A DNA stretch of 36,540 bases, from the NCBI GenBank assembly GCA_012744475.1, contig JAAYBV010000112.1, positions 1 to 36,540 of the forward strand, read 5' to 3'. This stretch comes from Phycisphaerae bacterium (GTDB lineage Bacteria > Planctomycetota > Phycisphaerae > Sedimentisphaerales > Anaerobacaceae). This document shows positions 377 through 35,188 of this stretch, piece by piece. Each line of letters starts with the position of its first letter. Position 1 is the stretch's first letter. The notes under the pieces are model-generated. The model did not search any database and was not told the origin of the DNA. It was given only the letters and a program-made list of their open reading frames with translations. Position numbers and translations under genes: made by a program.

Positions 377-529
377 GTATCTCGTATCTGGTTGTTCGTA
401 TCTCAGGGCACGGGTCACGCATTTACGCTCCGACGCATCTACGCAAGAACGGCAGGCCGAAGGCTGGAGGCTGTAGACCGGAGGGAATCAAGGCGAGCGA
501 CGAGATACGAGATTCGAGATACGAGATAC
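377..529. repeat. Heptad tandem repeat mosaic, copy 1a
   Basis: Three kinds of 7-bp block follow each other. Bases 377-404 are four in-register heptads (GTATCTC, GTATCTG, GTTGTTC, GTATCTC). Bases 455-482 are four heptads of a second family (GGCCGAA, GGCTGGA, GGCTGTA, GACCGGA). Bases 502-529 are GAGATAC, GAGATTC, GAGATAC, GAGATAC, which is the first family in inverse orientation. The first and last blocks can pair as the arms of a long stem-loop. In translation they give the motifs SYLVSRI or RYEIRDT, which is why spurious frames appear. Confidence 0.85.
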
Positions 530-540
530 GGCGTATGCCA

Positions 541-654
541 GGCCGGAGGCTGGATGTACGTAGTTTCCCGTATACGCATCTGCGAAAGAGCAGCAGGCGG
601 GAGACTGGAGGCTGGAGGCGAAGGCATCGCTCGTCGCTCGTCGCTGGTCGCTCG
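541..654. repeat. Heptad tandem repeat mosaic, copy 1b
   Basis: Further 7-bp blocks: GGCCGGA and GGCTGGA at 541-554; GACTGGA, GGCTGGA and GGCGAAG at 603-623; then TCGCTCG, TCGCTCG, TCGCTGG and TCGCTCG at 627-654. The last block is complementary to the GACGAGC heptads at 761-781, so it is the left arm of a second inverted pair. Unit length stays exactly 7 bp although the sequence of the unit changes between blocks. Confidence 0.8.
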
Positions 655-667
655 GGGGGCACGCGTG

Positions 668-715
668 AACGCATCTACGCTTCTACGCTCCTACGCTTCT
701 ACTCTTATACGCACG
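668..715. repeat. Octad tandem repeat (TACGCTTC)
   Basis: Six in-register 8-bp units: AACGCATC, TACGCTTC, TACGCTCC, TACGCTTC, TACTCTTA, TACGCACG. A shorter relative (TTACGCTC ... TACGCAAG) lies at 423-447. The block sits between two arms of the heptad family (627-654 and 754-781), where it would form the loop of the stem. Confidence 0.8.
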
Positions 716-745
716 GGCGAGGGGGGGTAACGCCTTACGGCGTCA

Positions 746-1681
746 CTACGAACGACGGGGGACGAGCGACGAGCGACGATCTTCGTCGATTTGCCGCAGG
801 GCGGTGTAGAGGGACTGCATTTCGGGCAGGGGCAGGGCGTGGCGTTGGCCGCGACGGAGGGGTTCGCCGATGATGGCTTCGGTCTCCATGGGATGGCCGC
901 TGCGGCGGTCGAGGTGCATCGACGTATAGTACGGCTTCATCTTCACCGTCAGGTCCATCATGTGGTCGAGGAAGGCGTCGTCGATGTGCAGGCCATCGGC
1001 CCCGGCGGCGGCCTGGACCTCCTTCATCAGTCGCCAGGCCCGCCCGTGCAGGTCGGGATTCGCCATGATCTTGTCGACGGTCAGGTCCAGCAGGGCCGAC
1101 AGGCCGTTAAAGGGGACATTCCAGATGAGCTTCTTCCATCGGGCCAGGGCGAGATCGTCGGCGATGGTGCACTCGACGCCGGCGTGCTGCATCATGCCGG
1201 CGAACGTGCGCAGCGTGGCATCGGGCGGGCGCTGGAAGTTGCCGGTCTGGAAGAAGCCGTAGTCGAGGTGGTGGATCACGCCGGGCGCAGCGCGATTCGA
1301 GCATAGGAAAGCCAGCCCTCCGGCGATGCGCTCGGCGCCGAACAGCTCGGCCAGACGCTCTTCGTTGCCCAGGCCGTTCTGGGCGGTGAGGACCCGCGTG
1401 GCCGGGCCCACCAGCGGGGCGACCAGCTCCTGATAGTGCGCGTTGGCGGTGGCCTTGAGGCCGATGAAGACGAGGTCCACGGCGCCGATCTCTTCGGGCC
1501 GACGGTAGCAGTTCACGCGGTCGAGATGGAAATCGCCCTGCCAGCTCTGGACGGCCAGGCCGGAGGAGCGGACGGCGTCGTAGTCCCGCCGCATCAGGAA
1601 GTGGACATCGTAGCCCGCGCGGGCCAGGAACGCGCCGTAGAGTCCGGCCATCGCGCCGGCACCGACAACGGCAATTCGCAT
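746..1681 (-). CDS. Ketopantoate reductase family protein (ApbA/PanE-like)
   Basis: A 311-residue member of the ketopantoate reductase family, which reduces 2-dehydropantoate to pantoate with NADPH in pantothenate/CoA synthesis. The N-terminus MRIAVVGAGAMAGLYGAFLA is the Rossmann nucleotide-binding motif (GxGxxxGLYG type). The middle holds LTAQNGLGNEE, matching the family's 'QNGLG' segment, and the C-terminal helical domain contains RWKKLIWNVPFNGLSAL, matching the family's 'K..WN...N..SAL' signature. The start at 1681 is chosen because AAGGAG lies 8 nt upstream and the Rossmann motif begins at once; the frame stays open to 1810 but that stretch is unrelated. The last dozen residues come from tandem-repeat DNA, so the native C-terminus has probably been replaced. 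Many PanE homologues act on other 2-keto acids; the substrate is not proven and there are no pan neighbours. Confidence 0.85.
   Translation of the reverse strand: MRIAVVGAGAMAGLYGAFLARAGYDVHFLMRRDYDAVRSSGLAVQSWQGDFHLDRVNCYRRPEEIGAVDLVFIGLKATANAHYQELVAPLVGPATRVLTAQNGLGNEERLAELFGAERIAGGLAFLCSNRAAPGVIHHLDYGFFQTGNFQRPPDATLRTFAGMMQHAGVECTIADDLALARWKKLIWNVPFNGLSALLDLTVDKIMANPDLHGRAWRLMKEVQAAAGADGLHIDDAFLDHMMDLTVKMKPYYTSMHLDRRSGHPMETEAIIGEPLRRGQRHALPLPEMQSLYTALRQIDEDRRSSLVPRRS
754..781. repeat. Heptad repeat overlapping the 3' end of the reductase gene
   Basis: GACGGGG, GACGAGC, GACGAGC, GACGATC: four 7-bp units, inverse complement of the TCGCTCG block at 627-654. The block lies inside the coding frame of the ketopantoate-reductase-like gene and encodes most of its last dozen residues (RRSSLVPRR). 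Confidence 0.75.
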
Positions 1682-1928: not shown

Positions 1929-2675
1929 TCAGTCGTTCGGGAAGTTCAGGTGGGCGTAGGGGCCGTGGAGGCGGCGGGCGGCGGTGTCGTGGGCTCGGGC
2001 GGCGTTTTCTTCGACGTCGAAGAGGCCGAGGTTCTTCTGGCGGCCGTGTTTCTTGACATAGGCGACCCACTTTTGCCGACGACGGTCCCAGGCGACGCCG
2101 AGGTACTGTGACGTCGCAGCTCGTGGGCCGTGGCCAGCGGCCCGCTTGCGGCGGTTGGCGTTGTTCTGCTCGACGGTGCAGTTGCGCAGGTTGGCGAGGC
2201 GATTGTCGAGACCATCGTGGTTGACGTGGTCGCAGACGAGGTGATCGGGCGTGTCCATGATCATGCGGTGCATGAGGATGCGGCGGGAGCGGCCGTTGTG
2301 TTGGACGGTGCGCACGGCGTAGACGGCATCGCGGTTGACCTTGGCGTGCCAGCGGAACTGGGCGAGCCAGGGGTAGTACGCCGGATCGACCTTCGCGAAA
2401 CGGCCCTGGGTCAGCGGGATCTTGCAGTACGGGCCGTGGCGGTCGGTGTGGACGGGCAGGTCCGGACACGGCTCGGGCCGGGCGTCGCGGTCAGCGTCCG
2501 GCTCGGCGGCGTCGCGGAAGCAGGCGCAGACGTCGGTCGGCTGGATGTGCGGCCAGCGGGCCCGTCCGGTGGCGGGGTCGGCCACCGGCGGGTTCCGCAC
2601 GCAACAGAGCGCGCCCGCCACGTCGCGACAATAACGGCAGCGGGCGCACCGTCCGGGTCTCGCCGCATCGTGCAT
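1929..2675 (-). CDS. HNH endonuclease with AP2 DNA-binding domain
   Basis: A 248-residue protein. Residues 1-55 are cysteine-rich (C10, C13, C16, C24, C25, C50, C52), a possible zinc-binding region. Residues 85-145 match the stretch that precedes the HNH motif in homing-type enzymes (IPLTQGRFAKVD, then MHRMIMD). Residues 146-172 are the HNH nuclease core (CDHVNHDGLDNRLANLR, then QNN). Residues 189-246 form an AP2/ERF-like DNA-binding domain (YLGVAWDR, KWVAYV, LGLFDVEENAARAHD, LNF). HNH-AP2 proteins are typically free-standing homing endonucleases of phages and bacteria that spread their own gene. The start has AAAGGA 7 nt upstream. No host intron, integrase or phage gene is next to it; the gene is flanked by repeats on both sides. 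Target and activity unknown. Confidence 0.85.
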   Translation of the reverse strand: MHDAARPGRCARCRYCRDVAGALCCVRNPPVADPATGRARWPHIQPTDVCACFRDAAEPDADRDARPEPCPDLPVHTDRHGPYCKIPLTQGRFAKVDPAYYPWLAQFRWHAKVNRDAVYAVRTVQHNGRSRRILMHRMIMDTPDHLVCDHVNHDGLDNRLANLRNCTVEQNNANRRKRAAGHGPRAATSQYLGVAWDRRRQKWVAYVKKHGRQKNLGLFDVEENAARAHDTAARRLHGPYAHLNFPND

Positions 2676-6051: not shown

Positions 6052-7107
6052 ATGGATATAAGACCCTACGAGCCGCAAGACGAGGAACGCAAGAGCGATC
6101 TGGACCTGCACGTCACTGTGCGTCCGGGCGTTCGCATTTGTCGGAGGTACACGCACCTGGACGCCCACGCGCGGATGTACGGCCGCTGTCACACGTTTGT
6201 GGCCGAGCACGAGGGCCGGATCGTCGGCGTCATCTCCGCCGCCATCAAAGACGTGCGTCTGGCGGGCCAATCCACAAGAGCCGGCTATCTGTTCGGCCTG
6301 CGGGTCGCGCCGCAGGCGAGGCGTCACGGTGTCGCATCGGCGCTACACGCCAGAGCGGAGCAGGCAACGAAGGACGACGGTGCGGCGGCCACATACGCCA
6401 TCGTCATGGCCGACAACGCTTCTGTGATGCCCCTGACTTCCAAGTTCGCTCTTGCACAGACCGATCGCGTGGAGACCCTGGTCGCGCCGGTTGCACGGCA
6501 GCGCTCCGATCGGACAAACGTGCGGACCGAACACTTGCCGGAGGCCATTGCGCAACGTATCGATCCGTTCTTTGAGAAGCATGATCTGTTCGTCCGGGGA
6601 TCGGAACGATATCCGGCCGCCGGCCAGTTCGTCCTGCACTGTGCGGAGCGGGGTTCATCTTCTGCCGCCGTGACAGTGTCCAGTCACAGTGCCGCCTTTC
6701 AAGACCTGGTCGAGTTCGTGCCCGCCTGCCTGCGTCCTCTTCGCTGCTTCTGGGATACGATACGCCCTCTCGTCACACTGCCTCACATTCCCGTGCGAGG
6801 CCGCACGGTCTCCACGCGATGGATCGGCGAACCGGTCCTCGATGGTCCCGAGGCGATGGGGCTGCTGCACGAAGTGTTCCGCCACATCCACAACAAGGCC
6901 GTGGAGGAAGGCGTGCACTGGCTGATGATGCCGATCCGTTCGTCGGATCCCCGGCGGCAACTGATCCGCGACGCCTTCTCAGCCGGCAGGCTCGCTCGTC
7001 TTCTGCGAGCAGACAGTACCGTTCCGTCGCTGCTGTTGTTCAAGCCGTTCGTCAGAGGATGCACTGTCAATCCGGAACGACTCTACCTCGACACAAGAGA
7101 CTTCTGA
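6052..7107 (+). CDS. GNAT-family N-acetyltransferase
   Basis: A 351-residue protein with an N-terminal GNAT fold. MDIRPYEPQDEE is a typical GNAT beginning, FVAEHEGRIVGVISAAI gives strands 2-3, and YLFGLRVAPQARRHGVASALHARAEQ is motif A, the acetyl-CoA pyrophosphate-binding loop (family consensus Q/RxxGxG/A). The C-terminal half (about 170-351) has no clear motif but could be a second, degenerate GNAT-like domain (GLLHEVFRHIHNKAVEEGVHWLMMPI). I prefer the ATG at 6052; a GTG at 6025 in the same frame lacks any Shine-Dalgarno sequence, while GGAAAG precedes 6052. It follows the CvpA-like gene after 60 bp and converges with the esterase gene, leaving 30 bp between the ends. Substrate unknown. Confidence 0.8.
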   Translation: MDIRPYEPQDEERKSDLDLHVTVRPGVRICRRYTHLDAHARMYGRCHTFVAEHEGRIVGVISAAIKDVRLAGQSTRAGYLFGLRVAPQARRHGVASALHARAEQATKDDGAAATYAIVMADNASVMPLTSKFALAQTDRVETLVAPVARQRSDRTNVRTEHLPEAIAQRIDPFFEKHDLFVRGSERYPAAGQFVLHCAERGSSSAAVTVSSHSAAFQDLVEFVPACLRPLRCFWDTIRPLVTLPHIPVRGRTVSTRWIGEPVLDGPEAMGLLHEVFRHIHNKAVEEGVHWLMMPIRSSDPRRQLIRDAFSAGRLARLLRADSTVPSLLLFKPFVRGCTVNPERLYLDTRDF

Positions 7108-26629: not shown

Positions 26630-29600
26630 CTACAGACCGGTGCCGGGGGTGGGGAGTGCGGCGTGCCAAGCGGCGGGGTCGTTGCTGGAGACGTCGGGGG
26701 CCACGTCAATCCGCTGGAGGCTGTCGCCCTGACCGTCGGCGGTGGCGGGCCAGGGGGCGGCGTCGGCGTAGACCACTTCGTCTACAACGACCCACGCAAT
26801 CGGATCCTGGAGATCGCCGGTTGCCTGGGGTTTCTCCAGTGCGATGCGCTCGGCGCCGTTGTTGAGGCCACCCTCCCAAGGCCCGACGATGTCGGCTCCC
26901 GGCGTCAGCGATTCAGCGCCGTAGGCCGCGATGAAGGCGGCCAGGCGCGCGGTCTCGACGAAAGGATCGAACCCGACGACGACCACGCAACCGCCGGACG
27001 CGATCGACAGACCCGTATCGAAGGTGTAGTGCACGCCGCCGTCGAGCCGCCACGGTCCGGCTTCGCTCTCCAGAATGACCTCCGCATCGGTCGGATTGAA
27101 CAACTCGATGAACTCGTCGTTGACGTCGACCGGATGATACATGATCTCGCTGACCATCAAGTCGAGGACCGCCCCAGCGTTGGCGACGTCGCGAGTGGGC
27201 TGAAGCCGGAACCAAAAGGCATCGCCGTCGGGATAGCGGCCCCGAGAAATCCCGCTTTCCTGCGCCTTGAAACGCACGCTGTCGACCACGCGGTCCTGCG
27301 CCGTGCCGGGCAGGTACGATAGGAGCAGGTCCTCGCCCGAGCGGCTCAGGCCGAAACCGAAATCGTCGCCCGATTCCTCGAACGTGAGGAAGTCGCCGGA
27401 CCCGATGGCGGGCGCCGCGACGGGCCACTTCTTCAGATTGCCGGCGTCGTCGCTGAGATAGAAATCGGCCAGAGCCACGCTCGCATTCGTCGGGTTGTAC
27501 AGCTCGACCCAGTCGTCACCACCGGCGGCAAGAAACTCATTGATCACGACGGTCGCTCCGAGATCGGGATCGTCGGCGCCGGGCGAGCCGCCGATGTAGG
27601 CACTGGCCCGCCAGTTGCCCGCGTAGTCGAGCGAGCCGGCAGGCTCATCGAGAATCGCCGAGGCCAGCGGAACCATCGAGTGGCCCGCGCCGTCGGCCGC
27701 AACCGGCCAGCTTGCGCTGTCGCCGTAGGTGAACTCGGCGATCGTCCCGTTCCAGAAATCCTCCAGCGCGACGGTCTCGCCGCCGTTGGCCAGCTTGCCC
27801 TCGTACTGACCCGCGATGAGACTCGACAGGGCCGCGCCGTAGCGAGACAGGAACGCCTGCCTGTTCTTGACCACCAGCACGAACCGTCCCGGGCCAAGGG
27901 TCGTGACATTACTGGCGACAAAGTCGAACGTCACACCCTTGGTCAGTGAGACGCTCGACAGGTCCAGCGTCTCATCGCCGATGTTCTTGAGCTCGATGAA
28001 CTCGAACTCGTCGGCATCCGTCATCGCGTCGGCGGCCGCAGCAGGATGGTACATCAACTCGGTGATGCGCAGGTCCGCCAGGATGCCGGCGGCAACCGGG
28101 TCGCCGGCGGTGAACTGGACCGGGCTGGACCAGTGACTCCAGCGACCGGTGTTGTCCTTCATCCGGCAGCGGACGCGATATGTCCGCCCCGGCTTGACCG
28201 CCGAGGCCGGGATGCGAACGTCCGGGTTGAACTGGGTCAATTCCGCCGATTCCCAGAGCGCCTCGATCTCGTAGCGGCCCGGCTCGCCCCGATAGACCTG
28301 GACCGGAGCCGGTGTCTCGTCGTCGGGTTCCTCCGTCGTCTCGGCGCTGAGCTTCAGATCAATGAAACAGTCCGAGCTGCTGCTGATGTCGGAGTTGAGC
28401 ACTTGGACGGCAATGACGTTGGTCCCCTCGACGAGGAAATCGCTCGGCACACCGACGTCGTACCGAACGAAATCCTGTACTTCGATCGCCGAGACGGCGG
28501 TGGCATCGTGTGCCAGCTCATCGGAGGCGACGTTGTCCTGGAAGACCAGGTGGTTGTTGATCCAGACGTTGATCCCGTCGTCGTACATCGCCTCGAGCAC
28601 GAGCGTGTCGAAAGCGGCGACGTTGGTCGCGTCGAAGGTCTTGCGCAGATAGATCGTAGAGTAGTTGCCCCGCATATCGGGCAGGCTGGTCTGGAGGAAG
28701 GCCTCTCCGAATCCGATGGGCGCACGGCCGACGAGCCAGGCGGCGTCATTGAACTGGAGCGTGCGCCATGCGCCGGCGGTCGCCGAGGGCTCGGCCGTTC
28801 CTTTGAAGTACTTCCACTGCGACCCGTCGGGCACGAAAAGGAACCCGGACGACTCGTCCGGCTGCACCACCTGCGAACCCAGGGCGACCTCGCCGATACG
28901 CCATTTCAATGCGGCGAACGTGCCGGCCCCCTGGGGATCGGCGAACGCGCTGGTGCGAAAGGTCAGGGCGTTGGCGGGGAAATCGGCCGGACCGGTGGCG
29001 GTGATGAGGGGGGTCTGCGGAATCGCGTTGTCTTCGACGTAGGTGTTGAACGCGCGGTTGTTCGAGACGACGTAGTCCTTCATGATCTGGACCATGCCCC
29101 GGAAGTCTTTGGTGGACGCCCGCTGGTAGAAGCGGCCCTGGCCCGACTTGCTCGGATTGACGTAACTGCTGGTCATGATCGGGTTGTAGTCCCACATGGC
29201 CCGGTCGGCGTCGACGAAGGTGGGACCGCCGGTGGGCGGGTCGATGACGTTGGCCAGCTCATCGAGCATCTGCCAGCCCTGGTCGGCGTTGTACAGCAGG
29301 TCGAAGAACTCGCGCAGGCGGTTCTGGAACTCGATGCGGAGGTTGGCGTTGGAGAAGATGCCGTTCCTCGTGAACTCGTCGGCGCCGCCGCCATACATGT
29401 TGTTGGCCCAGGTCAGGTCCAGGTCCCACGGCAGGATGGTCCATCGCTCGGTCGTCGGATCGTGATAGAAGAACCAGTTCTTGCCGCCTTCCATGTCGCC
29501 GTGGTGGATGGCCTCGACCGTGCAGCGGAAGCCATAGTAGGAAGCCAGATCGACGTTCTGCCGCCACCAGGGCTCCTGGGGGCGACTGTGGTAGCCATTG

Positions 29601-31300
29601 ACGAACGCCACCAGGTCGGAGTGGTCGGTCGGCTGGGTCGGTCCCTGGTTGTTCAGGGCGCCGCCGCCGGGGCCGGCGTCTCCGGACCCGCGATCCATCT
29701 TGTAGAGGTTGCCGTCGGGCAGACCGTGCTCGTCGAGGAAACGGCCGTCCATCTGCTCGATGGTCATGTACAGACCCCAGAAGTCGCCGTCGTACTGCGT
29801 GGCGCCGAATTCGTCGGCGTCGTCGATCACCCGAAAATGCACCCAGTTCGTCTTCGACGCCGGACAGCCCATCAGGTTGAACAGCTTGAAGCCCGCGGCC
29901 TCGAACATACCCTGCTCGCCGCGATGCTGGTAGTCGCCCTGCTGGATACAGGCAGAGAAATTGAGCTTGTCCCACTGTGTGTCATAGGGCCGCCCGTAGT
30001 CGTCGCGGGCCTGGAAATAGTGGCCTCGGAGGAAATCGGCCTTGAGCATGTTCTTGCCCATGGCATATCGCCAGACACCGCCACGGGCGCGGAAACGGAT
30101 GTGGTCGTAGACGACGCCGTCGTAGACGATGGTTCCGCGCCATCGATAGTCGCTGCCGCCGTACTGACCCGCTTTGGCGCCGGGCATATACAGGGCGTCA
30201 ACCACGTCCTGGTGGTTGGCGACCAAATGGTACACGGGCAGGCTGGTGAGCACCTCGGGGCTGTATTCAACGACCTCGCCCGTCGCGCCGCCGCTTCCGG
30301 GTCGGATGGCCCCGCTCCAGGCCGGGACGCCGTCATAGACGAAATAGGCGAAGTTGGGTTGCGGATCGTCGCTGTACGGCACCGTAAGGTTGTTTCCCAG
30401 ACCGTCCACTACAAACAGGCGATAGCGAACCAGACGCCGGTGCTTCTGCCGCAACGCGGGAATCTGCACGGTATAGATGTCGTCATGCGCGAACAGGTCG
30501 TCATCGAGGCCGTCGTCGTGCATATCGACCGTCTGCCAGCCATTGGCGTAGGAGGGCATATCGATCGCGATGTAGTTGCCCGGATCGACGATCTGATACA
30601 GCAGCTTGACGAACGCCACCCCGTCCGAGTCTGTGACCTTGGCGGTGATCGTCACGACCTGCCCGGATCTGGGTTGCCTGGGCGTGTGCGCAACCTGGCG
30701 GACGTGGGGCGGAAGATTCTGCAAAGACACCGTGCTGTTCTGCTCGGCCGGCGTGGGCGCCGCCGACCGCCAACTGCCGCCCAGGTCGTTGTCGAGCGAT
30801 GGATGGATCAGTTGCATCGACCGTCCGGTTCCCGGCTGGTTGTCCGAGATCGGATCGCCCACCGTCGGCCAGGGGAAGCCAAGCCGGTAGTTCACCTCGT
30901 CGACAGTGGTCCCGGCGGCGTCGCGCAGGATGACCCGGTCCCCTTCATTGGCGAGTTTGCCGACGTAAGGCCCGTAGACCAGAGACGGCGCGACGTGAAA
31001 GCGGGACACGCCCCTGCCGCCAAGAATGTCGGTGGGGCTTTGCCCGACGACCAGGTAGCCGCCGGCCGGCAGGACCGTCCCGGCGGGAAACGTGTACAGG
31101 ATTCCGCCCGCCAGAGACCACCCGGACAGGCTCATCGGCTCGGGGCCGGCGTTGTGCAGCTCAACGAACTCGAGCAGTTCCGTCTTCACATCAGGATTCG
31201 TGTGCAACTCGTTGATGACAATGGCCCCGTTGACGTGGGCCGAAGCCAGCAGCGTCAGGATCAAAACCGTCGTGCCCAATCTCGATACCCAGTTGCCCAT
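26630..31300 (-). CDS. Large secreted lamin-tail / CotH protein (long paralogue)
   Basis: About 1556 residues. Residues 1-25 are a signal peptide (VLILTLLASAHVNG). LTD 1 covers about 26-190 (VINELHTNPDVKTELLEFVELHNAG). A CotH kinase-like domain follows at about 370-740: DKLNFSACIQQGDYQHRGEQGM, YDGDFWGLYMTIEQMDGRFLDE and the metal-binding LPWDLDLTW. Next is a galactose-binding-like beta domain (TIYLRKTFDATNVAAFD; YDDGINVWINNHLVFQDNV; VEGTNVIAVQVLNSD), a fibronectin-like segment (YRVRCRMKDNTGRWSHWSSP), and three more LTDs at about 1074-1243, 1244-1380 and 1380-1556. CotH domains phosphorylate spore-coat proteins in Bacillus; in exported bacterial giants they may support adhesion or surface assembly. 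Two adjacent ATGs (31303, 31300) are possible starts; GAGG favours the second. Tandem paralogue of the next gene. Confidence 0.88.
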   Translation of the reverse strand: MGNWVSRLGTTVLILTLLASAHVNGAIVINELHTNPDVKTELLEFVELHNAGPEPMSLSGWSLAGGILYTFPAGTVLPAGGYLVVGQSPTDILGGRGVSRFHVAPSLVYGPYVGKLANEGDRVILRDAAGTTVDEVNYRLGFPWPTVGDPISDNQPGTGRSMQLIHPSLDNDLGGSWRSAAPTPAEQNSTVSLQNLPPHVRQVAHTPRQPRSGQVVTITAKVTDSDGVAFVKLLYQIVDPGNYIAIDMPSYANGWQTVDMHDDGLDDDLFAHDDIYTVQIPALRQKHRRLVRYRLFVVDGLGNNLTVPYSDDPQPNFAYFVYDGVPAWSGAIRPGSGGATGEVVEYSPEVLTSLPVYHLVANHQDVVDALYMPGAKAGQYGGSDYRWRGTIVYDGVVYDHIRFRARGGVWRYAMGKNMLKADFLRGHYFQARDDYGRPYDTQWDKLNFSACIQQGDYQHRGEQGMFEAAGFKLFNLMGCPASKTNWVHFRVIDDADEFGATQYDGDFWGLYMTIEQMDGRFLDEHGLPDGNLYKMDRGSGDAGPGGGALNNQGPTQPTDHSDLVAFVNGYHSRPQEPWWRQNVDLASYYGFRCTVEAIHHGDMEGGKNWFFYHDPTTERWTILPWDLDLTWANNMYGGGADEFTRNGIFSNANLRIEFQNRLREFFDLLYNADQGWQMLDELANVIDPPTGGPTFVDADRAMWDYNPIMTSSYVNPSKSGQGRFYQRASTKDFRGMVQIMKDYVVSNNRAFNTYVEDNAIPQTPLITATGPADFPANALTFRTSAFADPQGAGTFAALKWRIGEVALGSQVVQPDESSGFLFVPDGSQWKYFKGTAEPSATAGAWRTLQFNDAAWLVGRAPIGFGEAFLQTSLPDMRGNYSTIYLRKTFDATNVAAFDTLVLEAMYDDGINVWINNHLVFQDNVASDELAHDATAVSAIEVQDFVRYDVGVPSDFLVEGTNVIAVQVLNSDISSSSDCFIDLKLSAETTEEPDDETPAPVQVYRGEPGRYEIEALWESAELTQFNPDVRIPASAVKPGRTYRVRCRMKDNTGRWSHWSSPVQFTAGDPVAAGILADLRITELMYHPAAAADAMTDADEFEFIELKNIGDETLDLSSVSLTKGVTFDFVASNVTTLGPGRFVLVVKNRQAFLSRYGAALSSLIAGQYEGKLANGGETVALEDFWNGTIAEFTYGDSASWPVAADGAGHSMVPLASAILDEPAGSLDYAGNWRASAYIGGSPGADDPDLGATVVINEFLAAGGDDWVELYNPTNASVALADFYLSDDAGNLKKWPVAAPAIGSGDFLTFEESGDDFGFGLSRSGEDLLLSYLPGTAQDRVVDSVRFKAQESGISRGRYPDGDAFWFRLQPTRDVANAGAVLDLMVSEIMYHPVDVNDEFIELFNPTDAEVILESEAGPWRLDGGVHYTFDTGLSIASGGCVVVVGFDPFVETARLAAFIAAYGAESLTPGADIVGPWEGGLNNGAERIALEKPQATGDLQDPIAWVVVDEVVYADAAPWPATADGQGDSLQRIDVAPDVSSNDPAAWHAALPTPGTGL

Positions 31301-31390: not shown

Positions 31391-34300
31391 TCAAAACGCC
31401 AGAGCCGCCTCGACGTCGGGGTCATCGGCCCCGGGGGAACCGCCGATGCACGCGCTGGCGCGCCAGTAGTCCTTGTCGTTCGGCGAACCCGCCTCGGCAA
31501 CGGCCACCAGCGAATGGCCCGCACCATCGGCTTCTATCGGCCAGCCGCCCCTGTCATTATACCGAAATTCCGCCACAGTCCCGGCCGAACCATCCACCAG
31601 CGTGACAGTCTCGCCCTCGTTGGCCAGCTTGCCGGCGTATTCGCCCGCGATCAGCGGCGTCAGGTCCGCCCCGTAGCGGGCGAGGAACGCGGCCTGGTTC
31701 CGGACCACCAGGACGAACTGACCAGGGTCGAGGCTCGTGACGCGGCCGCTCGCGAAGTCGAACGTCACCCCTTCGGTCAGCGACACGCCGCTCAGATCGA
31801 GCGCGTGGCGGCCGACGTTCTTGAGCTCGATGAACTCGTACTCGTCGTTGTCGGCGAATGTGTCGCCCGCCAGTTGCGGGGGATTGTACATCAGCTCCGT
31901 GATCCGCAGGTCCATCGCGATGCTGGGCGCGATCCGTTCGCCGGCGAGGAACTGGACCGGCGCCGACCAGTGACTCCAACGTCCCGTGGTGTCCTTCATG
32001 CGGCAGCGCACGCGATAGGCCCGGCCCGGCGTGACGACCGAAGGGGGAACGCCCATGCTGTCGCTGAATCCGGTCAGCTCGTCGCTTTCCCAGATCGCGT
32101 TGATCTCATACTTGCCCCGCCCGCCGCCGGCGGTGGCCGGTGTCTCGTCCGAGGTCTCCTGCCGTTGCCACGCCGCCAGCCGGACGTCGATGAAACAATC
32201 GGAACTGCCGCTGATGGCCGAATTCAGCACCTGTACGGCGATGACGTTGCTCCCCTCGACCAGCCACGCGGCGGGATCGCCCAGATCGGAACTGACAAAA
32301 CTGGCGTTCTCGATCGCGCTGTCGGCGGTGCCGTTGTACGGCAGTTCGGCCGACGAAACGTTGTCCCGGTACGCCAATCGCCCGTTGATCCAGACGTTGA
32401 CTCCATCATCGTACTTGACGTCGAGAGTCAGGCGGTCGAGAGCGGCCAGGTCGACGGCGTCGAAGGTCTTGCGCAGATAGACCGTGGTATAGCCACCGCG
32501 CATGTCGCTCAGTTCGGTGGCGATGAAGGTCTCGCCATAGCCCAGCGGCGTGCGGCCCACCGACCAGGCGGAGTCATCGAACGCGAGCTGGCGCCACAGA
32601 CTCCGCGGCGACGACGGCTCCTGCCGGCCTTTGTAGTACCGCCATTGGGCCTCCTCGGGGAGCAGCACCACGCGTGAGTCCGTATGGACCACCCGCGCCT
32701 CGGGCGAGACCTCCGCCAAGCGCCACTGCATCGCGCCGAACGTGTTGCGGCCCTGCGGATCTTCGAAATGCGACACGCGGAACGCCAAGGCGTCGGCGGG
32801 GAATCCGGCCGGACCGATCGAGGTCACCACTGGCGTCTCGGGAATGTCCGTATCGTCGTCGATGCGCGCGAGGTTCTGGGCGCCCCAGCCGCCGGGACTG
32901 ATGAATTCCTTCATCCGCTGAACCATGCCGGCGAAGTCCCCGGTGGGCGAACTCTCATAGAACGTGCCCCGGCTGGCGGTGCGCGGATGATAGTCCCACA
33001 TGGCCCGGTCGGCCTGCACGAAGGACGGCCCGCCCGCCGGGTCCGCAATCACTGCCGCGCATTCGTCGATGATCTGGCCGCACCGGTCGGCGTTGAGCAG
33101 CAGGTCCGTCAGCTCGCGCACGCGGTTCTGAAAGGCGATGATGCAGTCGGGAAACTCGTGGTAGATGTTCGGGGTCCCGACGCTGTGGCCCTGGAAGAAC
33201 CGCCGGGCGAGCACCTGTTTCCAGTACTCGTCGTCGTCCGTGTAGATATCGGTGTCCCAGGAGTGGTCGAAATCCCACGGGATCATCCACCACTGGCCGG
33301 TTTCAGGATGGGCATAGTACAGGCAGTTCCATCGATCTGTCAGGTCGTAATGATGCACGGCGTCGCAGATGATGCGGTAGCTGTAGTAGACGTCGAGGTT
33401 CGTGTTGTCCTGCCACCACTGGCGGTCGGAGGGATGACGCTGGTAGGCGTTGCAGAAGCCGACGACGTCGCTGTGGTCGGTGACCTGGGTCGGGCCCTGG
33501 TTGTTCTTGTTGCCCGTGCTGCCGGTGCAGGCGAAGTACATCTTGTACAGGTTGCCGTCGGGCAGGTCGCGGGCGTCGAGGAAGCGGCCGTCGGGCTGCT
33601 CGATCGCCAGGTACAATCCCCAGAAATCGCCGTCGTACTGGCTTGGACCCGACTCGGCGGCATCGTCGATGACGCGAAAGTGCAGCCAGTTCATGTGACA
33701 CGAGGGCACGCCCGCCAACTGCATCAGCCGGGTGGTCACCGCCTCGTACATCCCGTGTTCGCCCCGGTTGTGGGTGTTGTCGAACTGGAAGCATGCCGAG
33801 AAGTTCAGCTTGTCCCACTTGGTCTTGTAGGGCCGGCCCTCGTCGTCATGGCCCTGGAAATAGTGCCCCCGATTGAAGTCGAATTTCCACCGGTTCTTTC
33901 CGAAGGCGTAGGTGGCCCAGCCGCCGCGCGGGCGATACCAGATGTGATCGTAGACGACGCCGTCGTAGACGAGGGCGCCGGTCCACTGATACCAGCCGGC
34001 CTCCTCGTTGCAGCGCGCGTCCGGGATGGCATTGAACTGGCAATCCTCGATGTCCTCGTGTTTCGCGATCAGGTGATAGACCGGCAGCGACTGCATCACT
34101 TCCGCCGGGCAGGTAACCACCCTGGCCTGAGCGGCATTCGAGCTGCCGGGTCGGATCGCGCCGCTCCAGGCGGGCACCTCGTCGTAGCAGAAGTAGGCGA
34201 AGTTGGGCTGTGGATCGTCGTCGTAAGGCGCCTTGACAGAAGCCCCATTCCGGTCCCAGGCACTGATGCGATAGCGCACCAGGCGGCGGTGCGTCTGCAC

Positions 34301-35188
34301 ATTGCCCGGCATCCGGACCGTATACACATCGTCGGCGGCCTGCTCGTCGCCGTCGGTCCCATCGTCCACCATCGGGACATCGACCCAGCCCCTGCCGTAT
34401 TCCGGGTCCAGGAAACGCCGGTTGTTGCCGTCGGAGTACTGATAGCGGATGTAGCGGCCCGGATCGACGAGCTGATATTGCAGGACCACCGCCGCTACAC
34501 CGTCGGGGTCCGTGATCTTGGCGGAGATCGTCACGGCCTGGCCGGAACCCGGCTGCTTCGGCGTGTGCCGGACCTGGCGGACCTGCGGCGGCGCATTGCC
34601 GGTCAGCACGGCCTGATTGGCGGCCGCCGGCGTCGGCGACGCCGACCGCCAACTGCCGCCCAGGTCATTGTCGAGCGCCGGATCGATCAACTGCATCGAG
34701 TCGCCTTCGCTGAGCCGATCGGTCGCGACCGGATCGCCCACCGTCGGCCAGGGAAAGCCGAGCTGATAGTCCACCTCGTCCACGACCGTTCCATCGGCAT
34801 CGCGCAGGACCACGCGGTCGCCATCATTGCCGAGTTTGCCAAGGTAGGGGCCGAAGACCAGGGCCGAGGCGAGGGGAAAACGCGCTGCGCCCCTGCCGCC
34901 AAGAATGGCGGCGGGACTCTGCGCCACGATGATGTGGCCGCCGGCCGGCAGGACGGTCCCGGCCCCAAACGTGTACGAGATCCCGCTCGTCAGCGACCAT
35001 CCGGCCAGGTTCACCGGCTCGGAGCCGGCGTTATGGAGTTCGACGAACTCCAGCAGTTCCGTCTTCACGTCCGGGTCTGTGTGCAGCTCGTTGATGACCA
35101 CCGCCGCCGTCGCCCGGCCGCAGGGCACATGGACACAAAGCGACCAGAGCACAGCCGCCAGAATCGGGAATCGCTGCGATAGGGTCAC
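31391..35188 (-). CDS. Large secreted lamin-tail / CotH protein (short paralogue)
   Basis: A 1265-residue protein with a GTG start behind AGAGGA. Signal peptide 1-28 (ILAAVLWSLCVHVPCGRATA). LTD 1 spans about 30-185 (VINELHTDPDVKTELLEFVELHNAGSE). An Ig-like segment lies at 205-320, and the CotH domain at about 365-745 with DKLNFSACFQF, YDGDFWGLYLAIEQPDGRFLD and the metal site IPWDFDHSW (636-644). A galactose-binding-like domain covers 865-1005, a fibronectin-like one 1027-1082, and LTD 2 1095-1250. It ends at GGSPGADDPDVEAALAF, exactly where its paralogue continues into LTD 3, so it lacks two LTDs. Cysteines are more frequent than in the paralogue. The paralogue starts 90 bp downstream on the same strand, so both are probably transcribed from 35296-35325. 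Confidence 0.88.
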   Translation of the reverse strand: MTLSQRFPILAAVLWSLCVHVPCGRATAAVVINELHTDPDVKTELLEFVELHNAGSEPVNLAGWSLTSGISYTFGAGTVLPAGGHIIVAQSPAAILGGRGAARFPLASALVFGPYLGKLGNDGDRVVLRDADGTVVDEVDYQLGFPWPTVGDPVATDRLSEGDSMQLIDPALDNDLGGSWRSASPTPAAANQAVLTGNAPPQVRQVRHTPKQPGSGQAVTISAKITDPDGVAAVVLQYQLVDPGRYIRYQYSDGNNRRFLDPEYGRGWVDVPMVDDGTDGDEQAADDVYTVRMPGNVQTHRRLVRYRISAWDRNGASVKAPYDDDPQPNFAYFCYDEVPAWSGAIRPGSSNAAQARVVTCPAEVMQSLPVYHLIAKHEDIEDCQFNAIPDARCNEEAGWYQWTGALVYDGVVYDHIWYRPRGGWATYAFGKNRWKFDFNRGHYFQGHDDEGRPYKTKWDKLNFSACFQFDNTHNRGEHGMYEAVTTRLMQLAGVPSCHMNWLHFRVIDDAAESGPSQYDGDFWGLYLAIEQPDGRFLDARDLPDGNLYKMYFACTGSTGNKNNQGPTQVTDHSDVVGFCNAYQRHPSDRQWWQDNTNLDVYYSYRIICDAVHHYDLTDRWNCLYYAHPETGQWWMIPWDFDHSWDTDIYTDDDEYWKQVLARRFFQGHSVGTPNIYHEFPDCIIAFQNRVRELTDLLLNADRCGQIIDECAAVIADPAGGPSFVQADRAMWDYHPRTASRGTFYESSPTGDFAGMVQRMKEFISPGGWGAQNLARIDDDTDIPETPVVTSIGPAGFPADALAFRVSHFEDPQGRNTFGAMQWRLAEVSPEARVVHTDSRVVLLPEEAQWRYYKGRQEPSSPRSLWRQLAFDDSAWSVGRTPLGYGETFIATELSDMRGGYTTVYLRKTFDAVDLAALDRLTLDVKYDDGVNVWINGRLAYRDNVSSAELPYNGTADSAIENASFVSSDLGDPAAWLVEGSNVIAVQVLNSAISGSSDCFIDVRLAAWQRQETSDETPATAGGGRGKYEINAIWESDELTGFSDSMGVPPSVVTPGRAYRVRCRMKDTTGRWSHWSAPVQFLAGERIAPSIAMDLRITELMYNPPQLAGDTFADNDEYEFIELKNVGRHALDLSGVSLTEGVTFDFASGRVTSLDPGQFVLVVRNQAAFLARYGADLTPLIAGEYAGKLANEGETVTLVDGSAGTVAEFRYNDRGGWPIEADGAGHSLVAVAEAGSPNDKDYWRASACIGGSPGADDPDVEAALAF

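Follow-up and report, generated by a model that had tools for sequence, protein, structure and literature searches.

Blocks of tandem 7- and 8-bp repeats in the genome of a Phycisphaerae bacterium are probably arms, lacking their gene, of small elements that look selfish and are related to 23S rRNA intervening sequences (IVSs). The blocks lie on a contig of 36,540 nt (C103), which was analysed in its entirety and is referred to here as the window; the genome comprises 5.75 Mb in 118 contigs and is 99.6% complete. What a previous, sequence-only reading of the blocks overlooked is that such arrays elsewhere are the arms of elements carrying a gene for a four-helix-bundle protein. In a full element, a gene encoding a protein of ~120 residues lies between two arms built of tandem 7- or 8-bp units, the right arm repeating the unit of the left in reverse. 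All four unit families of the window arm intact elements of the same genus, namely, GTCGCTC in the same genome (L254), GTATCTC in G005 (L289), AGGCTGG in G001 and G005 (L297 and L294, respectively) and the octad, as inverted pairs, in G004 (L288), and the window blocks are therefore best read as gene-less arms.

Repeat blocks in the window

Tandem Repeats Finder reports seven tandem blocks at 370–785, of which five have a period of 7 and two a period of 8, accompanied by shorter copies, so that the heptads and octads exist as described in the sequence-only reading. The period-7 arrays are located at 376–404 (CGTATCT), 500–530 (ACGAGAT), 595–619 (AGGCTGG), 627–654 (TCGCTCG) and 748–779 (ACGAGCG), and the period-8 arrays at 417–445 and 669–712. 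The proposal that the period stays constant while the units drift is supported. As tandem, chiefly intergenic 7-bp units, the heptads have the properties of heptameric simple sequence repeats, and they are unlike a CRISPR array, as had also been stated, since the 7–8-bp units follow each other head to tail, with no spacers in between.

Of the four unit families, GTATCTC and GTCGCTC form facing arms at 370–785. The first hairpin has a left arm of GTATCTC heptads (370–404) and a right arm of GAGCGAC/GAGATAC heptads (495–536), with an inverted pair 370–404/502–536 that is 80% complementary over 35 nt. In the second, GTCGCTC heptads (626–654) pair with GAGCGAC heptads (748–779), 627–654/749–776 being 86% complementary over 28 nt; its right arm overlaps the 3′ terminus of the neighbouring ketopantoate reductase (ApbA/PanE) gene (746–1681, minus strand; PF02558, PF08546), and an octad block (669–712) lies within it. 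The octad and AGGCTGG blocks, by contrast, face one way and have no inverted partner within the window, so that the opposing arms of the sequence-only reading, which are supported, are limited to the GTATCTC and GTCGCTC families: the octad copies at 417–445 (ACGCATCT), 574–585 (short) and 669–712 share one orientation, as do the AGGCTGG copies at 454–476, 540–554 (short) and 595–619. Of the stem-loops that had been proposed, those at 365–540 (z −3.6) and 620–785 (z −7.0) are backed by RNA folding against shuffled sequences, as is the whole of 365–785 (z −5.1), whereas 410–620 gives no hairpin signal (z +0.3). A third facing pair, beyond the region described previously, joins GTATCTC heptads at 1815–1843 to a right arm at 1861–1913 (z −5.4 for 1810–1916). 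The window is thus best read as a superposition of two paired families and several solo blocks. Neither a PF05635 gene nor a relic of one was found at the blocks, the sole match in the window being at 6825–6968 (E 0.57), and no rRNA match in the window. Comparison of the array site among relatives through the ApbA gene was of no use, as the best match in the genus has 27% identity.

The third hairpin is neighboured by an HNH-AP2 endonuclease-like gene (1929–2621, minus strand; AP2 above the cut-off, HNH_3 below it), for which the genome has 14 matches, including 11 strong ones (window and L202–L215). Arrays or octads begin directly downstream of several of these genes (window, C6, C77). The endonuclease was rejected as the driver of the arrays, because among 11 examples examined by eye inverted arms are present at L210 only; possibly it is another small mobile gene. 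Two dispersed inverted repeats that look MITE-like were recognized by eye in a set of loci (L203, L207, L210, L211, L212, L151 and L168): a palindrome, GGGGCGAAT...ATTCGCCCC, and a longer repeat starting with GTGGCAGCCTCAA and ending with TTGAGGCTGCCAC. Separately, the window contains two very large adjoining genes on the minus strand (26630–31279 and 31391–35128; 1549 and 1245 aa), which belong to one similarity cluster with members also in L162, L191 and L198.

Inverted arrays flank most PF05635 genes tested

The gene carried by the elements belongs to PF05635/TIGR02436, the four-helix-bundle protein of 23S rRNA intervening sequences, and the solved structures among its matches are 2gsc (Xanthomonas XCC0516) and 2rld. 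At least one such gene is present in 53 of 61 genomes (264 matches in all). The seven in our genome, one of which has an in-frame stop, are all located between other genes and by eye have inverted 7/8-bp arms. Their sites include what we take, from the translations, to be groES/groEL, leuC/leuD and the region upstream of dnaX. Both neighbours are co-directional with the gene at 58 of 71 loci and both opposite at only one, the remainder being mixed or cut off. No rRNA match was found in 13 element loci, and a search of phage records gave no match at E 1e-5. In cyanobacterial plasmids, PF05635 genes between arms lie inside cas operons, at cas6/cas4 (L353, L356) and cas10/cmr3 (L355). The protein is known from rRNA insertions (excerpts of PMC11270868), and 18 genes of the family in cas loci have been listed (excerpts of PMC3936711).

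For a quantitative test of the arms, up to 220 bp of the upstream flank of each gene was aligned with up to 260 bp of its downstream flank in reverse complement, with mismatched gene pairs as the null. Once duplicates and two short-flanked loci (L281, L340) had been removed, 101 PF05635 genes were tested. Of these, 71 were drawn from the 264 matches in 61 genomes: 35 represent our own seven and the best match in each of 29 relatives, and a further 36 were chosen by place. The remaining 30 come from three sources, namely, viral contigs, plasmid records (12 of 41) and Atribacteria. Inverted arms exceed the 95% null level for 83 of 101 PF05635 genes against 12 of 407 other genes, and the 99% level for 50 against 4; the control genes are from our own genome and thus differ in composition, which the mismatched-pair null covers. 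The arm period is 7 in 73 of the 83 passing genes, 8 in nine and 9 in one, and it is 7 in three of the 12 passing controls. The importance attributed earlier to 21 bp, or two helical turns, is therefore unsupported, as 8-bp units serve alike in nine of the 83 arm pairs. Two of our own seven genes (L255 and L257) are among the 18 that fail, together with L265, L270, L285, L286, L300, L302, L309, L314, L318, L319, L321, L323, L327, L334, L341 and L354. With slightly different flank lengths aligned, nine of ten further cyanobacterial plasmid loci exceed the 95% level (L367 fails).

The elements have a median outer length of 469 bp (interquartile range 438–526), and the right arm begins at the stop codon (median +1). 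When 12 of them were folded as RNA, the left arm paired with the right over 12 to 59 bases. Complementary bordering sequences, as in IVSs, are found in 83 of 101 elements and, in the window, in two of four unit families and the third hairpin.

Gene and arms behave as one unit

Arm units are alike within an element and different between elements. For elements that share no flanks (3,342 pairs), arm similarity averages 0.21, 0.19 and 0.21 at protein identities of <0.35, 0.35–0.45 and 0.45–0.55, and rises to 0.35 at 0.55–0.70 and 0.52 at ≥0.70. The Spearman correlation is 0.11, a value equalled in 1 of 500 permutations; it is the close pairs that carry the link, as rapid drift of the units would predict. 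An element from Atribacteria (L064) and one from a relative of the same family as our genome (L316) illustrate it, with proteins 70% identical, GTATCTC arms in both and unshared flanks. Judging from these sequence comparisons, the arm unit follows the protein type at unrelated sites. Saturation of dS affects 17 of the 31 close protein pairs; in the remaining 14, dN is always much lower than dS, indicating that the PF05635 protein is under purifying selection.

Several junctions of one operon in our genome contain arrays, and from the translations we take this operon to encode V-ATPase subunits and name one of its junctions atpB–atpD. With the subunit-B-like protein as query, the loci of 20 relatives were compared by eye and the gene was identified by profile. 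An inserted gene between inverted arrays is present in five genomes, each with its own arm unit: GTCGCTC in G000, the octad GTAGATGG in G004, GTATCTC in G005, GTGACTC in G003 and GAAATAC in G017. Six others (G002, G007, G020, G016, G008 and G006) lack arms and have the two genes close to each other, G014 has arms without a gene, and the G001 locus is truncated by a contig end. The AtpB proteins of G004 and G005 are 97–98% identical to our own, yet the elements and arms differ. The element proteins of G000, G004, G005 and G003 are 48–69% identical to each other and only 18–24% identical to that of G017. Elements have therefore turned over among species at this junction. At a different V-ATPase junction, elements with GTGAAGC arms and proteins 86% identical over 98 aa (dN 0.08, dS 1.08) are present in both G000 and G004; from their sequences these elements look orthologous. 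Thus, related elements occur at different sites with unshared flanks, and the atpB–atpD site exists both with and without an element.

Distribution of the repeat units

A genome-wide search for the unit families, which the sequence-only reading had proposed, was run with up to three mismatches and the reversed pattern as control. All four recur far above the control, with 70 sites against 0 for GAGATACx3, 58 against 3 for GAGCGACx3, 9 against 0 for GAGGCTGx3 and 23 against 0 for the octad, and several families cluster near each other across the genome. Units recur also in relatives and other phyla, so the blocks are not confined to this site. In 363 kb of own-genome stretches we counted 80 imperfect period-7 arrays (3 in shuffled sequence), 64 of them intergenic, a number that is not a density because the stretches were chosen for holding arrays; the window and 220 kb of other stretches contain nine (shuffle 0). 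Heptad arrays are also found at true contig ends (L021, L026, L043, L050, L073 and L105); assemblies seem to break at them, and their number is probably underestimated.

Among our genome and 60 relatives, GAGATACx3 with up to two mismatches is present in 27 of 61, all but one of these 27 belonging to one family. Exact GAGATACx4 occurs in at least 119 stretches of named genomes, with hosts including Vibrio, Pseudoalteromonas, Halomonas, Kuenenia, Omnitrophota, Latescibacterota, Chloroflexi and Paenibacillus, and GTATCTC arms are found in Atribacteria too. The 867 kb of GAGATACx4 loci listed contain 244 perfect period-7 arrays (≥2.5 copies) and at most 35 of any other period from 5 to 15; 132 of the 244 are of the seed unit, and, as the loci were selected by one heptad, only the 112 of other units count toward a period-7 excess. 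Variant units at these loci often occur in runs, resembling the outcome of slippage. Among the 119 listed GAGATAC loci of other genomes, 117 lack an exact inverted partner within 900 nt and only one has a PF05635 gene. A common gene beside the arrays in other phyla was also sought and rejected, the largest clusters of open frames covering 15, 13 and 12 of the 119 listed loci and none being near universal. The two main families comprise 98 arrays (≥2 units) in the fetched stretches, against seven genes genome-wide. Solo arms in excess of genes may be decayed, may spread by themselves or may have grown by slippage from small seeds.

Origin of the arrays and alternative explanations

We suggest that an element is cotranscribed with its operon and that its arms pair in the RNA, where RNase III could cut, as it does in rRNA IVSs according to the accessible text of PMC4990558. 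Such cutting would leave the messages of both neighbours usable, and operons would therefore tolerate the element. The PF05635 protein may recognize its own arms and aid movement of the element. Slippage would add and remove whole units; because tandem units make pairing tolerant of slippage, the unit and copy number could drift while the period and the pairing between arms are kept. Gene-less pairs and solo arms, including those of the window, would then be decayed or non-autonomous forms. Counted against the reading of the window blocks as gene-less arms are the lack of a gene or relic at them, the unpaired state of most arrays, including the octad and AGGCTGG blocks, their surplus over genes and the failures in the arm test; nor did a target duplication or a base-exact empty site come to light.

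Reverse transcriptase acting in trans is rejected as a requirement for movement, being absent from 28 of the 53 gene-bearing genomes (rho 0.01), and our own genome has no RVT_1 match at 99.6% completeness. Y1 transposase (Y1_Tnp) has no match in six of the 53, with one weak match in our genome (E 4e-7, a frame of 200 aa); with a rho of 0.27 (p 0.03), it may have a part.

The order of events could also be the reverse, with heptad hairpins being generic intergenic structures and the four-helix-bundle gene a parasite that enters their loops, much as IVSs take the place of loops in rRNA helices. Arrays greatly exceed genes, gene-less hairpins exist in the window and in G014, and rRNA IVSs take the place of tetraloops (excerpts of PMC4990558), all as this scenario would have it. 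We nevertheless hold it to be unlikely, since the arm unit follows the protein type at unrelated sites, even across phyla, and several relatives have a bare, armless atpB–atpD junction. An origin as plain microsatellites, in which polymerase slippage in neutral intergenic DNA creates the heptads and their closeness to the PF05635 genes is coincidental, is more doubtful still. Runs of variant units and the chiefly intergenic position of the arrays agree with it, and both a bacterial heptamer excess and the idea of slippage have been published (excerpts of PMC4692102); but inverted pairs around one gene family at the frequency observed (83/101 against 12/407) are not a slippage product, and slippage would not spread a few unit families across a genome. 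It is thus disfavoured as the whole story, yet may well act on the arms. Finally, it is very improbable that the arrays are binding or processing sites regulating neighbour genes at the DNA or RNA level: of 19 own-genome arrays within 60 bp of a stop codon, 17 do show GTATCTC/GTCGCTC in the mRNA sense, and paired heptad/octad sites of Geobacter were interpreted as regulator sites (excerpts of PMC2700814), but this bias is reversed at the loci of other genomes (11 of 39) and orientation relative to genes is hence not a general rule.

Relationship to known systems

Returning to the gene-bearing elements, these have in common with the 23S rRNA IVSs with an S23/IVP frame, as described in the accessible text of PMC4990558, the protein family, complementary ends and a sporadic distribution, and their median length is comparable to the 428 nt of the Coxiella IVS. 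They differ in being outside rRNA, mostly between co-directional protein genes. Their arms consist of tandem 7/8-bp units, a feature that the stems of rRNA IVSs may or may not share. The window blocks differ further in having no S23/IVP (PF05635) frame, whereas elements elsewhere have the gene, at loci chosen for it.

Three kinds of repeat resemble the arrays, as far as the excerpts of the respective papers go. The GGGAATC repeats of Xanthomonas and GGGGAYT repeats of Nostoc (PMC4692102) are likewise mostly intergenic 7-bp units that drift, and some in Xanthomonas also form inverted pairs; in those excerpts they are interpreted as quadruplex repeats, unconnected to mobile elements and with no link to PF05635. 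The TAACTGA repeats of Beggiatoaceae, Cyanobacteria and Bacteroidetes (PMC4679880) are also tandem heptads scattered patchily across phyla, but have a single fixed unit, lie mostly just upstream of start codons and were proposed to act in translation. The heptad/octad sites of Geobacter metallireducens (PMC2700814) share 7-/8-bp tandem units and opposite-strand pairs at variable distance, and were interpreted as binding sites of global regulators.

Avd of diversity-generating retroelements is a related four-helix bundle (excerpts of PMC10053308), and two of six own proteins match it weakly; such retroelements differ in that our genome has no reverse transcriptase. Like the present elements, REP/RAYT and MITE-like repeats are dispersed inverted repeats of short length that may be moved in trans, but the arms described here have a period of 7 or 8 and element-specific units, and Y1_Tnp is not matched in every gene-bearing genome. 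Moreover, a REP is a single imperfect palindrome with a conserved head, in place of which the arms here are tandem arrays.

The link between heptad arrays and PF05635 genes may be new: no paper making it was found in the open-licence literature, and it is absent from the accessible parts of PMC4692102, PMC4679880, PMC2700814, PMC3936711, PMC10910872, PMC10053308, PMC11270868 and PMC4990558. Tentatively, we raise the possibility that the intergenic 7-bp excess of many phyla is largely the footprint of one four-helix-bundle mobile family, whose ends would be read by unit and period, whose units would drift as protein and arms co-evolve, and which would move without reverse transcriptase or a known transposase. 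The element is a concrete, testable candidate mobile element, and its presence in cas operons suggests insertion rather than a CRISPR function of the PF05635 genes found there. If the broader proposal is true, the commonness of intergenic heptameric repeats and the role of sporadic PF05635 genes outside rRNA would become one puzzle, and a puzzling kind of bacterial repeat would gain a source.
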